Origin: Rhodopirellula bahusiensis
GTDB taxonomy: Bacteria > Planctomycetota > Planctomycetia > Pirellulales > Pirellulaceae
Direction: 5' to 3'
Assembly (NCBI RefSeq): GCF_002727185.1
Contig: NZ_NIZW01000001.1
Location: 496,001 to 560,000, forward strand
DNA: 64,000 bases
The notes under the pieces were generated by a model. That model was not told the DNA's origin. It was given only the letters and a program-made list of their open reading frames with translations, and did not search any database. Of this stretch, positions 47,784 to 63,700 are shown in pieces. Position numbers and translations under genes: made by a program. Within the stretch, counting starts at the first letter, position 1; each line of letters starts with the position of its first letter.

Positions 47784-48821
47784 ATGTCGCAATCGGTGGT
47801 GTCCAATAACTCATCTGCTTCCTCGGTGACGGAACCATCGCTAAGCGATGACGATGTCCAAGCCGTCGACCGTCTCGGGCGATTGACTCAGCAACTCCGA
47901 GACGAACTGGCTCGGGTGATCGTTGGCCAACGTGAAACAGTTGACTTGTTGTTGGTGTGTTTGTTTGCACGACGACATGCATTGCTGATGGGAGTTCCAG
48001 GACTCGCCAAGACTCTGTTGGTCAGCAAGCTCGCCGAAACGATGTCGCTGAAGTTCAATCGCATCCAGTTCACACCGGACTTGATGCCCATGGACATCAC
48101 CGGCACCGACATCCTGCAAGACAACGGCGACGGTCGTCGCGAATTCCAGTTCGCTCATGGGCCAGTGTTCGCAAACATCGTGTTGGCCGATGAGATCAAC
48201 CGAGCCCCACCCAAGACCCAAGCGGCGATGTTGGAAGCGATGCAGGAACAACGCATCACCGTTGTCGGCAAAGGCTTTGACCTGCCGCCACCCTTCATGG
48301 TGCTTGCGACACAAAACCCAGTCGAACAAGAAGGCACGTACCCGTTGCCGGAAGCTCAACTGGATCGCTTCATGGCGTTGATCGAATTGGACTACCCATC
48401 CGAAGAAGAAGAGATCGCGATCGCTCGTACAACGACGGGCGGACGGTTGCCTGAACTTCAGCACTTGATGACGGCAGAAAACATCGTCGCCAATCAAGAC
48501 CTCGTCCGCCGGATCCCGGTGCCAGATCACATTTACACCGAAGCCGCCCAGTTGGTCCGCAAGACTCGACCGGCCGGCGGAACCGCTCCGTCATGGTTGC
48601 TGCCGTTGGTGTCCTGGGGTGCTGGCCCACGAGCCGTTCAGGATTTGATCTTGGGCGCCAAGTCACGAGCCGCACTGGAAGGTTCCTACATGGTCCGCAC
48701 CGAAGACGTCCGAGCAGTGGCACTGCCCGTGCTGACACACCGACTGATCACCACCTTCGCCGCCCAAGCCGAAGGCATGACCGCCCGAGACATCGTCGCA
48801 AGGTTGCTGGAAGAGGAGTGA
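47784..48821 (+). CDS. MoxR-family AAA+ ATPase
   Basis: 345 residues. Walker A is GVPGLAKT (70-77), preceded by the MoxR-typical LFARRHALLM; FTPDLMPMDITGTDIL is the MoxR insert; Walker B is IVLADEINRAPPKTQAAMLEAMQE; LATQNPVEQEGTYPLPEAQLDRF holds sensor 1 and the Arg finger; the lid domain follows. MoxR proteins act as chaperone-like ATPases with VWA and DUF58 partners. Here the DUF58/VWA genes follow, but a small mobile-looking element now separates them. Confidence 0.95.
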   Translation: MSQSVVSNNSSASSVTEPSLSDDDVQAVDRLGRLTQQLRDELARVIVGQRETVDLLLVCLFARRHALLMGVPGLAKTLLVSKLAETMSLKFNRIQFTPDLMPMDITGTDILQDNGDGRREFQFAHGPVFANIVLADEINRAPPKTQAAMLEAMQEQRITVVGKGFDLPPPFMVLATQNPVEQEGTYPLPEAQLDRFMALIELDYPSEEEEIAIARTTTGGRLPELQHLMTAENIVANQDLVRRIPVPDHIYTEAAQLVRKTRPAGGTAPSWLLPLVSWGAGPRAVQDLILGAKSRAALEGSYMVRTEDVRAVALPVLTHRLITTFAAQAEGMTARDIVARLLEEE

Positions 48822-48827
48822 GAGTCA

Positions 48828-48855
48828 CTAGCTACTAGCTGTTAGCTGTTAGCAA
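48828..48855 (+). repeat. short heptad run left of the DUF559 element
   Basis: Four 7-bp units CTAGCTA, CTAGCTG, TTAGCTG, TTAGCAA. They resemble the ten CTAGCTC units right of the element, in the same orientation. Confidence 0.7.
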
Positions 48856-48922
48856 AGGAGCGTCAGCGACGCGTTGTCCCCTCTCCCCCGGCTTCCGGGG
48901 GAGAGGGCAAGGGTGAGGGGGA
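48855..48922 (+). repeat. left terminal inverted repeat of the DUF559 element (68 bp)
   Basis: Matches the reverse complement of 49325-49391 with only four substitutions and one single-base gap. Inside it, 48879-48907 is a perfect 13-bp hairpin with a 3-base loop (CCCTCTCCCCCGG / CCGGGGGAGAGGG), and 48860-48872 is a smaller one (GCGTC-AGC-GACGC). Confidence 0.92.
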
Positions 48923-48943
48923 ATCCACCAAACAGAGCAAACC

Positions 48944-49339
48944 ATGCCAATCCGCCAACCACCTCAACTAACACAAAACGCTCGCAAGCTCCGCACCAAC
49001 CAAACCAAAGCCGAATCACTCGTCTGGACACTCCTCCGCAATCGTCAACTCAACGGAAACAAGTTTCGACGGCAATTGCCCATCCCACCTTTCATCGCCG
49101 ACTTTGCCTGTGTCGAGAAACGATTGATCGTTGAACTCGACGGCGACTACCACGAACATCAAGAGCAACAAGACATGAGCCGAACTGCTCAATTGAACCG
49201 CGCAGGATGGATCGTCGTGCGATTTTGCAACGCGGATGTCTTGGAAACACCGAGGCGGTTGGTGTGGCGATATTGCGGGCTATGGGAGAGGAATGGAAAG
49301 GTCACTAGTGATTGTGTTTTGAGATCCCCCTCACCCTAG
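48944..49339 (+). CDS. DUF559 family endonuclease-like protein
   Basis: 131 residues. Family blocks are all present: FRRQLPIPPFIADFACVEKR, LIVELDGDYHEHQEQQDMSR, LNRAGWIVVRFCNADVL. The likely PD-(D/E)xK site is Glu24, Asp53, Glu64 and Asp66, in the same superfamily as Vsr mismatch endonucleases. All these residues are intact, so it is probably active. The last codons and the stop (TAG at 49337) come from the right inverted repeat. It is in the same direction as moxR and DUF58, but its role is unrelated to theirs as far as can be seen. Confidence 0.88.
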   Translation: MPIRQPPQLTQNARKLRTNQTKAESLVWTLLRNRQLNGNKFRRQLPIPPFIADFACVEKRLIVELDGDYHEHQEQQDMSRTAQLNRAGWIVVRFCNADVLETPRRLVWRYCGLWERNGKVTSDCVLRSPSP

Positions 49340-49391
49340 CCCTCTCCCCCGGAAGCCGGTGGAGAGGGGACATCGCGTCGCTTCGCTCCTT
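49325..49391 (-). repeat. right terminal inverted repeat of the DUF559 element
   Basis: 67 bp, the inverted partner of 48855-48922. Its hairpin (49340-49368) keeps the 13-bp stem with one mismatch and an AAG loop complementary to the CTT loop of the left copy. Confidence 0.92.
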
Positions 49392-49397
49392 CGGAAA

Positions 49398-49467
49398 CTA
49401 GCTCCTAGCTCCTAGCTCCTAGCTCCTAGCTCCTAGCTCCTAGCTCCTAGCCCCTAGCTCCTAGCCA
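49398..49467 (+). repeat. 7-bp tandem array, CTAGCTC x10
   Basis: Ten head-to-tail heptads: units 1-7 and 9 are CTAGCTC, unit 8 is CTAGCCC, unit 10 is CTAGCCA. It begins six bases after the right inverted repeat of the DUF559 element. Confidence 0.97.
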
Positions 49468-49470
49468 CCC

Positions 49471-49596
49471 AACACCCAACACCCAACACCCAACACCCAA
49501 CACCCAACACCCAACACCCAACTCCCAACACCCAACTCCCAACACCCAACTCCCAACTCCCAACTCCCAACTCCCAACTCCCAACTCCCAACTCCC
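49471..49596 (-). repeat. 7-bp tandem array, AACACCC/AACTCCC x18 (G-run heptads on the minus strand)
   Basis: Eighteen heptads: seven AACACCC, then alternating AACTCCC/AACACCC, then a run of AACTCCC (nine of each in total). On the minus strand every unit has a GGG run spaced by four bases (GGGAGTT/GGGTGTT), the pattern of G-quadruplex-forming sequence. The array ends one base before the TTG start codon of the DUF58 gene, leaving no Shine-Dalgarno sequence. Confidence 0.97.
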
Positions 49597-49597
49597 C

Positions 49598-50509
49598 TTG
49601 TCCGAACAACACACTCCTCGCGAATTTTTGGAACCGAAGGTCTTGGCAGGCTTGTCGGGGTTGCCTTTGTTTGCGCGCCGGCCAATGCGAGGCAATGTTT
49701 CCGGTCGGCACACCAGCCCCATGCGGGGCGCGAGCGTGGAGTTTGCTGAGTACCGAAAGTACGTTCCCGGCGATGACCTGAGACGATTGGACTGGCGAGC
49801 ACACGGTCGCAGCGATCGCTACTACGTCAAAGAATTCGAAGCCGACACGAACCTGCGTTTGCAACTGGTTTTGGACACCAGCGGTTCGATGGAATACGGC
49901 TCCGGCGAACTCAACAAATTGCAGTATGCCCGTCGCATCGCCGCCGCGATCGGTTACTTGGCCGTGCAACAAGGCGATGCCGTCGGGCTGTCGTGCGTCA
50001 GCAATGGCATCACCGGTCACTTGCCACCTCGACGCAACCCGGCTCACCTCAAGACCATCTTCGATGCCCTCGAAGAAACTCGCGGCCAAGGCGAAACCCA
50101 TCTGGTCGACGTCTTGCATGAACTCGCCGAAACGACTCGCCAAGCTGCGATGGTGATCGTGATTTCGGACTTCTTCGTTGATCCCAATCAACTGCGAAGC
50201 TGCTTCGAACACTTGCGATTTCGCAAACACGATTTGTCGCTGTTCCATCTGCTCGATCCGATGGAACTGAACTTCGAATTTTCGCGGCCGACTCGCTTCC
50301 TCGACATGGAAGGCGGCACCGCCATCTTTGCCGAACCCAGTGAGATCGCAGATCGGTATCACGATGCCTTGAAAGACTACCTGGATCAACTGCAACGAAT
50401 CGTGGTGTCCTCGGGTGTCGACTATCACCGAGTCAGTATCGATCAACCGTACCCCGAAGTGCTGACGAACTTCTTGACCCGACGCGCGATGGCAAAGGGG
50501 GGACGATGA
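49598..50509 (+). CDS. DUF58 domain protein
   Basis: 303 residues from a [23 protein letters not shown] and [17 protein letters not shown] form the DUF58 signature; the following VWA-like part has DTSGSM (MIDAS). The frame remains open back through the heptad array, but there is no start codon in it, and a stop lies in the preceding array, so TTG at 49598 is the only available start unless CTG-like codons are used. DUF58 proteins work with MoxR ATPases. Its stop overlaps the next start (ATGA). Confidence 0.92.
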
Positions 50510-60745: not shown

Positions 60746-63700
60746 AAATTTTGGAAAATCACGATCGCATGAAACGACCATTCGCCAAGCTCATCCGGTG
60801 TTCAGACCTTGCAAACATCGGCGCCTTCACCCTTCACCCTCCCGCTGGGAGGGTCGAGCGAAGCGAGGGGAGGGTCGAGCCTGAACTCAGCAATCGCACT
60901 CCCCGGCCCGAAGCGGACCGTCTCTCCCCAAGGCACCGAAGGACTTCCACCGCGGCGAGGGTGTCCCTGATCTTGCTAGTGGGCGTCTTTGGTTTCCTGA
61001 ACCGGGCGTTGTGCCCCCCTCCATTGTTCGCGAATGATTTCTCAGGAATCCTGAGGCTGAACAATGGCGACCATGTGCAAGGCCATTTCGCGGCGTCGCG
61101 GATCAGCGAGGAAGAAACCCCGGCCATCGTGAATTGGCAAAACGCTGAATTCGCAACACCGTTTTCGTTTCCGTTTGGTTCCTTGGCCTCGGCCACTTTT
61201 CCACCGCCATCGGAAATCAACGCCACCCAAGGGCAGTTCGCACTGGAACTGCTCAACGGCGACCGCCTGTTCGGCAACATCGTCAAAATGGGCGATCCGT
61301 TGACGGTTTCACTCGCCGGCGGAGAAACGTCGAAACTTCCGCTCGCCATGGTTCGCCAGATCTTTCGCTGGGATGACAGTCGCGCCGTTGTCTTCCAAGG
61401 TCCCGGCCCACGTGATGACTGGGAATCGAACGGTCAGTTTGAGAGCTGGACCGATTCGACGGGCACGCTCGAAACCAGCGCCGCGATGGCCACCATTTTC
61501 CGAGATTTGCAACTCCCGAAATTGGCCAGCATCGAATTGGACATCGCTTGGGAAGGAAAACCCAACTTTGTGATCGCAGTTGGTGTCGATCCTGATTCGG
61601 CGGAACACACTTGGGCCGACGCGTTTCACATTGAGGTTTGGGATGATGACATCGTTGCCGTTTGGGAAGACGGTTCGCTGGCTGGTGTCGAATCCATCGC
61701 GAAACTCAAAGACCTTGGCAATCGACTGCAGGTGACCCTCAAGATCGATCAGGTCAAACGACGCGTGATGATCGAGTCGATGCGTGGCGAAACACTGACG
61801 CAGTACACACTGCCAATCAAAACGCCACGCGTCGCTCAAACCGGCATCTACTTTCGCAACATCGACGGCGTCCTGCGGATTCGTTCCTTGCAAGTCCTAC
61901 ACGCGACGGATCTCTCCTCCAAGCCAGGGACGCCCACCAAAGCATCCCAGACGTCAGACGAAACGCCCGACGAATCCGGCGTCGGCGTTTCGGTGCACCT
62001 GAGCGACGGTGAGTCGTTTCAAGGAAGCTGGATGGGGATCAAAGAAGACCAATGGCTGTTTTCAGTTGGCGAAGAAGAACGTCTCGTCGCAGCCGACCAA
62101 ATCATGGTCATGGACTTCCTCCACGCCGCCTCGAAAAATCCTCCCGAAGAGCTATCCACCATCGATCAGTTGCAAATCAGAACCTTTGATGGGATGCGTC
62201 TGAGTGGCCGTTTGGAACGAATCGACGATCAGTCCTTGCATGTCGTTGCAGCGGCGACACAAACCAAAGTTGCGATCCCAACTTCTAGCATCGACACGAT
62301 CGACTTCCAGTCATCGCAACCGTTGGTGCCGTCGCAACGGGGACTGATGCGATTGGAACTGGACGGCACACGGCTTCACGGGCGTTTGCTCGATGCTGAA
62401 CCGGACAGTCAGCCAACGGCACTCCGGTTCGAAACATCGGGCGCAGCACCAGTTGTCATGCGTCCCAACATCGAAGGAAAACTGACACTGCGTCCCAAAG
62501 TGGAAACCACCAAATCCGCGACCGAACTTCGCATCGAGAGGCTGCAAAAGATTCGACAGGCAGCCCAAAAGCAAAACAATCTGCAACGCGCCGCCGTCCG
62601 ACGCGCACCCGTCCAGCAAGCAAAAAAGCCTGGCATCTGGAACGTGTTCAGCAAAGTCTTCGACCCTAAAGAGAACGCGAAGGCGATTGCGGGAAGACCA
62701 ATCTATCTGAAAACCGGCGAAGTCATCCCGGGCAGAGTGATTTCCATTGACGAAAATGAAGTCACCTTTGAATCCGGGATGACTCAGAAAACAAAGCTAC
62801 CGAGAGAACAGATCCGTGCGATTCATCTGAGTTCGATCGGGAGCGAACCGGTCATCGACACGCAAGAACGCGAACGTTTGCTCACCGTTCCTCGCAATCG
62901 AAAAAACAGCCCACCAACCCACCTCTTGATCGCTGACAATGGCGACATGATGCGTTGTCGACTGGTGTCACTCACCAAAGAAAACGCCGAGGTCGAATCA
63001 CGTCTAGAAACCATCACGATCCCTCGAAAAGTCATCTCAAAGATCATCTGGTTGAAACCGCCGATCGACACGGATGAGTCAACCAAAGCAACCGGCGAGG
63101 AGGCAGACGAAGAACTTGGAAACAAGAAAGCAGACGTCGATTCGGACAAATTGACGGTGCAAGGCAAGCTTCTCGATGGCAATCGATTGTCATTGGTTCC
63201 CGAGAGCGTTATCAATCAAACGATGATTGGCGAAAACTTTTTCCTCGGCCCGATTCGTCTGCCACTTGCGAACTGCGAGGAACTGTATCTCGGCAAACGC
63301 GACGATCTCGATAACCCCGATGATCCGCACGCGATTTGGCAACTGGTGAATGCTCCCGAACCCATCATCGGTGACTCGGGCGGTGGCGACGATTCGATGG
63401 CGGGCACACGATCCCCGCTGGTTGGCCAGAAAGCTCCTGACTTCAAACTCAAAACCTTGGATGGCGAACCGTTCCGCATCGCCGATCAAACTGGTCGAAC
63501 GCTGGTTTTGGATTTCTGGGCCACCTGGTGCGGTCCGTGCATGCAAGCCATGCCGGTGATCGAAGATGCGGTTGCCGAGTTTGATCCCGAGCAAGTCAGA
63601 TTGGTCGCGGTCAATTTGCAAGAAAGTGCCGACGACGTCCGCAACACACTCGACCGAATCGGAGTCAGCCCCGAAGTCGTGCTGGACATCGACGGTGTCG

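Follow-up and report, generated by a model that had tools for sequence, protein, structure and literature searches.

DUF559 nuclease genes between inverted hairpin repeats: a putative mobile element without a transposase that recurs across bacterial phyla

REPIN/RAYT systems combine hairpin repeats, inverted pairs of these repeats that hold no gene, and one gene flanked by the repeats. RIME of Sinorhizobium and the Rickettsia palindromic elements are further known repeat elements, and we know of no cognate nuclease for either. The PIT or intrastrand triplex motif (TM, TMECO) was described by Holder et al. 2015 (PMC4666352), who report the motif in more than 260 genomes, five inverted motif pairs in E. 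coli and triplex formation by the E. coli motif in vitro, and state that no mobility-providing activity was found near it. PMC4666352 makes no mention of DUF559, and neither do the open-access RAYT/REPIN papers that we checked. The open-access papers searched yielded no link between DUF559 and repeats; subscription journals lay outside this search, and such a link may be in print elsewhere.

Here we analyze a window of 64,000 nucleotides from Rhodopirellula bahusiensis (the whole stretch of DNA under study; contig NZ_NIZW01000001.1, positions 496,001–560,000, forward strand), in which a small nuclease gene lies between two inverted hairpin repeats. Units of this kind share with REP/REPIN and RAYT (TnpA-REP) the small hairpin repeats, the gene-less inverted pairs, and the single gene flanked by the same repeats. 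They differ in the enzyme, which is a DUF559 protein of Vsr-type fold and not an HUH Y1 nuclease, and in the repeat tail, which is GGTGAGG here, in contrast to the REP tags GTAG/CGTC given in the title of PMC3733652.

The DUF559 unit between moxR and DUF58

The unit sits between moxR and a DUF58 gene, as the initial annotation had placed it, and together with heptamer arrays on both sides it parts the two genes. Downstream, the overlapping operon junction described earlier is also present, with an overlap of 4 bases between the DUF58 gene and the next ORF. The features are as follows.

47784–48821 (+): moxR (AAA_3), upstream flank of the element, from ORF and domain match
48828–48853 (+): short run of heptamer-like units (CTAGCTn/TTAGCTG) to the left of the element, missing from empty sites
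48855–48922 (+): left repeat arm, a hairpin and then a AGGGTGAGGGGG tail facing the gene, from the sequence
48879–48907 (+): left hairpin, 13-bp stem and CTT loop, from the sequence
48944–49339 (+): nuclease gene of the DUF559 family (PF04480) and Vsr fold, with its last ~30 codons frameshifted, from PF04480 match and ortholog comparison
49325–49391 (−): right repeat arm, an inverted copy of the left arm, from the sequence
49340–49368 (−): right hairpin, stem with one mismatch, from the sequence
49398–49597 (+): tandem arrays of heptamers, first (CTAGCTC)n and next (CCCAACA/CCCAACT)n, to the right of the element, missing from empty sites
49598–50509 (+): DUF58 gene, downstream flank of the element, from ORF and domain match

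The two inverted hairpin repeats first noticed around the DUF559 gene are real: segments 48865–48922 and 49325–49382 are 95% complementary over 58 nt, with a spacing of 402 nt. Each arm consists of a GC-rich hairpin followed by a AGGGTGAGGGG tail directed to the gene, and the PIT-type block order (pyrimidine, purine, and a third purine-rich block) is present in these arms as in the recurrent arms described below. Of the 13-bp hairpin originally assigned to each arm, the left one has a perfect stem and the right one carries a mismatch; the complementary CTT/AAG loops exist as described, and their complementarity follows automatically because the arms are inverted copies. The heptamer arrays right of the element vary among orthologous loci.

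The gene between the arms is a DUF559 gene by its PF04480 score (122.1 bits, E 1.2e-35, gathering cut-off 20.6), with family matches to DUF559 and MTES_1575 only. It is the sole ORF with a family match between the arms, where neither a transposase gene nor a gene for an HUH Y1_Tnp enzyme is found. In an AlphaFold2 model of the ortholog from G002 (mean pLDDT 83.6), the nearest solved folds by Foldseek are 3hrl (a DUF559 protein), the catalytic domain of the homing endonuclease I-Bth0305I, and Vsr; a profile search concurs for 3hrl and I-Bth0305I. The I-Bth0305I catalytic domain is the closest solved relative outside DUF559 (hmmsearch E 3.6e-5, Foldseek E 1.2e-3). The likeness to the Vsr mismatch endonuclease comprises a shared fold and a weak profile match only (TIGR00632, 18.2 bits, under the family cut-off of 97.85). 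An alignment of 61 sequences, including that of the window, has as invariant residues E24, W28, F41, R42, D53, E64, D66, G67, H70, D77, and R93.

The nuclease gene had been called intact, which comparison with five orthologs at the same locus (G002, G003, G004, G006, and G012) contradicts: in the window copy, the loss of one nucleotide near 49245 shifts the last ~30 codons out of frame, and for this reason the stop codon of this copy lies within the right repeat. The statement that the right repeat supplies the stop thus holds for the window copy, and only by way of the deletion, since the orthologs have an in-frame stop after 121–122 aa and the right arm begins 14–17 bases past it in four of them (in G003 the contig ends). 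Purifying selection acts on the first 100 codons, where dN/dS is 0.11–0.27 in all 15 pairs of six sequences.

The age of the insertion can be read from a genus sample of 13 genomes, 11 of which have a MoxR match at E<=1e-120 (none at that level in G007 and G008). A DUF559 gene stands beside moxR in six congeners (G000, G002, G003, G004, G006, and G012), with the junction read directly in G000, G002, and G004 and placed by match positions in the other three; a DUF58 gene downstream of the element is seen in G006 and G012, and the contig ends in G003. The unit had been proposed to be an insertion, and empty sites are indeed found in five congeners (G001, G005, G009, G010, and G011), where the DUF58 gene starts 1–4 bases past the moxR stop and the junction holds neither the repeat nor the heptamers. 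MoxR identity to the protein of the window is 95–100% in occupied genomes and 87–88% in empty ones, which is most simply explained by a single old insertion within one clade. The window element is thus old and vertically kept, with its gene copy damaged later at the end. Recent movement, previously read from the high identity of the arms, is ruled out for this unit, which is common to six genomes.

Ongoing homogenisation of the arms, the other reading offered for their identity, was assessed over a shared 56-nt core. Between genomes, left arms are 93–100% identical (15 pairs) and right arms 91–98% (10 pairs). Left and right arms are 89–100% identical within a genome (mean 94.3, five genomes) and 89–98% identical between genomes (mean 94.0, 25 pairs), and because the two means are so close, general homogenisation is unsupported. 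G006 alone fits: its two arms (L015) are identical over the 56 nt and carry the same private loop change, which suggests homogenisation; the other four of the five genomes show no sign of it. Synonymous divergence among orthologs at the locus is substantial (dS 0.17–0.57) where the arms vary little, so the arms seem to be conserved between species.

These observations would also suit a host function, with DUF559 as a repair-type nuclease for processing these hairpins, flanking repeats that control its expression, and no mobility now. Besides the age and vertical inheritance of the copy, the purifying selection on it, and left arms that differ by 0–7% between species across such synonymous divergence, this explanation can call on the few records that match one DUF559 query among phages (5 of 50,697) and plasmids (46 of 72,556), and on PADLOC, where neither the window protein nor its ortholog matches a defence family at E<=0.1 (the DUF559 protein of L075, discussed below, weakly matches a single model of 1911 positions, E 0.0096). 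We nevertheless regard a present host role as quite unlikely, as the genes undergo tandem amplification in one genome (G421), gene-less pairs with shared ends are dispersed, and DUF559 presence is patchy within families. A mobile-type unit is the reading that we prefer. Phage or plasmid cargo was also considered and rejected on the same few matches.

Recurrence and arm design of repeat-bracketed DUF559 genes

Five aligned DUF559 proteins, searched against one genome per species, returned at least 526 confirmed relatives. The best 80 of these were kept, and their record titles name Planctomycetes, Chloroflexi, Alpha- and Gammaproteobacteria, Nitrospirae, Bacteroidetes, and others. We scored a locus as flanked when an inverted match between the 400 bp on each side reached a score of >=40, and as stand-alone when its open frame was <=260 aa and both flanks were >=300 bp, which excluded 5 short-flank loci. 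Inverted flank repeats occur at 49 of the 57 stand-alone DUF559 loci drawn from the best 80 of at least 526, as compared to 6/1952 sliding windows and 2/300 neighbouring ORFs used as controls; the remaining 8 of 57 have no flanking inverted repeat. Loci with longer frames (>260 aa), counted apart, pass at 10/18. In the Xanthomonas family, 25/28 stand-alone and 2/2 longer loci pass, these loci being too short for control windows of their own. None of four Azospirillum DUF559 loci has a flanking inverted repeat. The architecture first recognized in the window, a mobile-type unit with a nuclease of Vsr/DUF559 fold and no transposase, recurs across phyla, and we hold it very probable that units of DUF559 gene and repeats form a genuine class of element.

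Within the genus, self-comparison of 19 loci reveals that almost every small DUF559 gene has inverted repeats on its two sides, and that these repeats differ in sequence among loci. The exceptions are the fragments L028, L031, and L032, which have no bracketing pair, and L012, which is cut by a contig end.

Across 40 loci, the arms differ in sequence and mostly share a design, which consists of a hairpin, a short spacer or second hairpin, and a GGTGAGG-like tail toward the gene; some right arms overlap the ends of DUF559 ORFs. The commonest arm hairpin is CCTCTCCC-loop-GGGAGAGG. In the longer inserts, a Watson-Crick stem of >=5 is found in 33 of 52 repeats versus 14.6% of shuffles, the 52 having been picked by hand from listings and not being independent. 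Judged by sequence, the commonest arm is the known PIT/TM motif: in PMC4666352, the motif has the same order of blocks (CCTCTCCC, GGGAGAGG, GGTGAGG) and is likewise intergenic, dispersed, widespread, and at times arranged in inverted pairs. The difference lies in the enzyme gene found here between the motifs. Rfam gave two matches, both under the gathering score.

 G421 carries five repeat-DUF559-repeat units in tandem (L301, G421:C5:328500-340500), whose proteins are nearly identical around the active site. In Sinorhizobium, the DUF559 genes of L259 and L260 are flanked by inverted two-hairpin units of about 110–130 bp, a likeness to RIME.

Association with DUF559, gene-less copies, and empty sites

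We searched genomes with a strict pattern, CCTCTCCCN{2,8}GGGAGAGGN{1,30}GGTGAGG, and with its reversed form as a control. The pattern misses the repeat of the window itself, and G000 scores 0, because the loop of that repeat is too long. In 198 genomes from the family of Xanthomonas sp. Leaf131, which we take to be Xanthomonadaceae, the repeat is present in 94/106 genomes with PF04480 versus 18/92 without, with a mean of 29.3 versus 1.3 copies; the reversed pattern has 0 matches in all 198. This association persists in three genome-size classes. Among 297 genomes of the class to which the window belongs, the repeat is found in 65/95 with a strong DUF559 match (E<1e-20), 24/69 with weaker matches only, and 30/133 with none. 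The strict pattern is absent from 12/106 DUF559 genomes in the Xanthomonas family and 30/95 in the class of the window. Conversely, 48 genomes have the repeat and no DUF559 match (18/92 and 30/133, respectively); in the class of the window, 11 of the 133 genomes without a match have >=10 copies, with a maximum of 126. Loss, draft gaps, or another enzyme are candidate explanations for these. The initial annotation had named, as evidence against its reading, repeats that form a common stand-alone family with no link to DUF559; they do form such a family, and one strongly associated with DUF559.

Genomes with repeats and no DUF559 would be expected if a RAYT or another enzyme moved the repeats and DUF559 genes were merely captured between them. 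The RAYT domain Y1_Tnp is indeed frequent in the Xanthomonas family (134/198), and without stratification it has a weak association with the repeat (83/134 versus 29/64, p 0.03; Fisher p-values overstate because the genomes are related, and are descriptive only). Within DUF559 strata, however, Y1_Tnp does not predict the repeat (73/82 versus 21/24; 10/52 versus 8/40), and the repeat families that bracket DUF559 genes differ across many phyla, as they do between the two DUF559 genes in the genome of the window, which renders mere capture very unlikely. The association instead makes DUF559 the likely cognate enzyme of the repeats, and suggests that it is the enzyme so far missing from a widespread and unexplained bacterial repeat family. 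Its role in moving the repeats is inferred from association.

A REPIN-like feature, inverted pairs that hold no gene and end as the gene-bearing copies do, was found in G041 (Rhodospirillales bacterium URHD0017), which has 87 + 88 pattern matches, about 175. Of 100 listed matches, 76 fall in 38 tail-to-tail pairs, with no head-to-head and no same-strand pairs, and one of the 38 encloses the DUF559 gene of L075. Twenty chosen pairs with short spacers have sharp ends 7 bp outside the hairpin. None of the 20 shares >=3 nt at the apparent end, as a target-site duplication would; 2 nt are shared in 2/20 versus 1.3 expected from mispairing, and other end offsets give no clear excess. The unit therefore differs from a DDE-type insertion sequence in having no transposase gene and, in this set, no clear target-site duplication. 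Both DUF559 genes fetched from G041 (L075 and L122) have the termini and hairpin of the gene-less pairs. L075 also has their tail, with its ATG one base past the arm, and L122 has a tail without GGTGAGG and a right arm inside the ORF end. Seven G041 pairs with longer spacers contain poly-C/poly-G (4), stretches of N (2), or the L075 copy (1); the C runs followed by G runs within palindromic pairs (L302–L305) look like hairpin assembly artefacts.

A second empty site was sought by matching the joined flanks of eight elements to the 198 Xanthomonas-family genomes. At the junction occupied in L111, between genes that we take from their reading frames to be hppD and hmgA, the match runs continuously through the joint in, for example, G087, G120, and G147, among the matches listed. 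The aligned empty spacers are short and hold no repeat, and they are too diverged for the exact joint to be seen. Empty sites thus occur at two loci in two phyla, neither close enough to define the exact joint. No strain-level empty site appeared among the matches listed for Azospirillum and Sinorhizobium replicons.

These sites bear on a homing variant, in which DUF559 cuts gene-less pairs and recombination copies the gene in, so that the repeats are the target and spread by other means. Its appeal lies in the kinship with the I-Bth0305I catalytic domain and in the ends and orientation that gene-less pairs share with gene-bearing copies. The EDxHD homing endonuclease I-Bth0305I (reviewed in PMC3943268) is likewise encoded by a small gene and has a related catalytic fold; DUF559 units differ from it in not lying in an intron and in the absence of a long DNA-binding region. 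They are also bracketed by repeats, and their diverged empty sites are without the repeat. Since the empty moxR-DUF58 (five genomes) and hppD-hmgA sites hold no repeat, the elements there were not inserted into a pair already present, unless that pair was lost. Homing would moreover leave the spread of the repeats unexplained, and we judge it unlikely compared with the movement of repeats and gene as one unit.

In E. coli, ycjD is a DUF559 gene whose 3' end is overlapped by a degenerate repeat, and a motif copy with one mismatch to the strict pattern lies ~170 bp downstream (L137 1908-2261, about 1705-1745). The locus varies, with >=80% of it covered in 3362/5426 genomes; in strain 167 it is 106 bp shorter and ycjD is truncated. 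As a clean empty-site case ycjD fails, because in the two ycjD-less strains that we read other genes stand beside fabI.

Proposed mode of spread and repeat copies in the genome

Our interpretation is based on the architecture of the units, their recurrence, the association of repeat and gene, the sharp ends shared in one genome, the empty sites, the absence of clear duplications in one set, and selection at the locus. On balance, we favour the combined statement, mechanism included, that repeat-DUF559-repeat is an autonomous element and the gene-less copies are its derivatives, a REPIN/RAYT-like arrangement with an unrelated enzyme. The ends would be two inverted hairpin repeats, commonly CCTCTCCC-loop-GGGAGAGG, each with a spacer or variable second hairpin and an inward GGTGAGG-like tail. 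They would enclose one gene for a DUF559 nuclease of ~110–140 aa with the Vsr/I-Bth0305I fold. Gene-less copies with the same ends, as inverted pairs or single hairpins, would be non-autonomous derivatives, so far named PIT or intrastrand-triplex motifs.

The specific cut-and-copy mechanism is a tentative part of this proposal. DUF559 would recognize the folded repeat, probably in DNA that is single-stranded during replication or extruded, and nick or cut it at its border. Host replication or repair would then copy or join the freed hairpin-ended DNA elsewhere without a target-site duplication. To our knowledge, a lone nuclease of the Vsr/DUF559 fold has no known strand-transfer chemistry. Taken at its widest, the proposal makes DUF559 proteins the enzymes dedicated to mobilising a class of hairpin/triplex repeats that spans phyla, with PIT/TM and relatives as non-autonomous copies of a transposase-free element spread by structure-specific cutting and host copying; in this form it is in our estimate evenly balanced between true and false. 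We set the element apart from the REPIN kind because RAYT, the defining enzyme of that kind, was tested for and is absent; a stricter reader could place it within REPIN. If the link is true, the repeats gain an enzyme and the enzyme gains a substrate. Bacteria would then have a second REPIN-like system with unrelated chemistry, and some orphan intergenic repeats that rank among the most widespread in bacteria would be explained as non-autonomous copies.

In the genome of the window, the other DUF559 gene (L002) is flanked by a different hairpin repeat family, ACCCTCC..GGAGGGTCGAGCGAAGCGAGGGGAGG. This family has 8 copies in 800 kb of the genome (40 stretches of 20 kb), 3 of them at L002, as compared to zero for the reversed control in the same 800 kb. 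A solitary copy lies in the window.

60836–60873 (+): solitary repeat of the L002 type, the second family of the genome, from a pattern match in the window

Further genomic copies of the window repeat, anticipated by the initial annotation, were found as well. The window-type core has six exact copies, two at the window gene, two at L006 in direct orientation about 154 bp apart, and two in L008. Exact copies alone count, since the pattern and its reversed control match equally often once up to 3 mismatches are allowed. These few copies include no gene-less inverted pair with gene-bearing ends. The two repeats of L008 (about 1498–1600; G000:C2 about 689340–689440) are in-frame insertions in a dehydratase gene that resembles rmlB, a likeness to the Rickettsia palindromic elements, and residues 283–316 (~34) of the gene product are without a counterpart in the solved dTDP-glucose dehydratase 1g1a.
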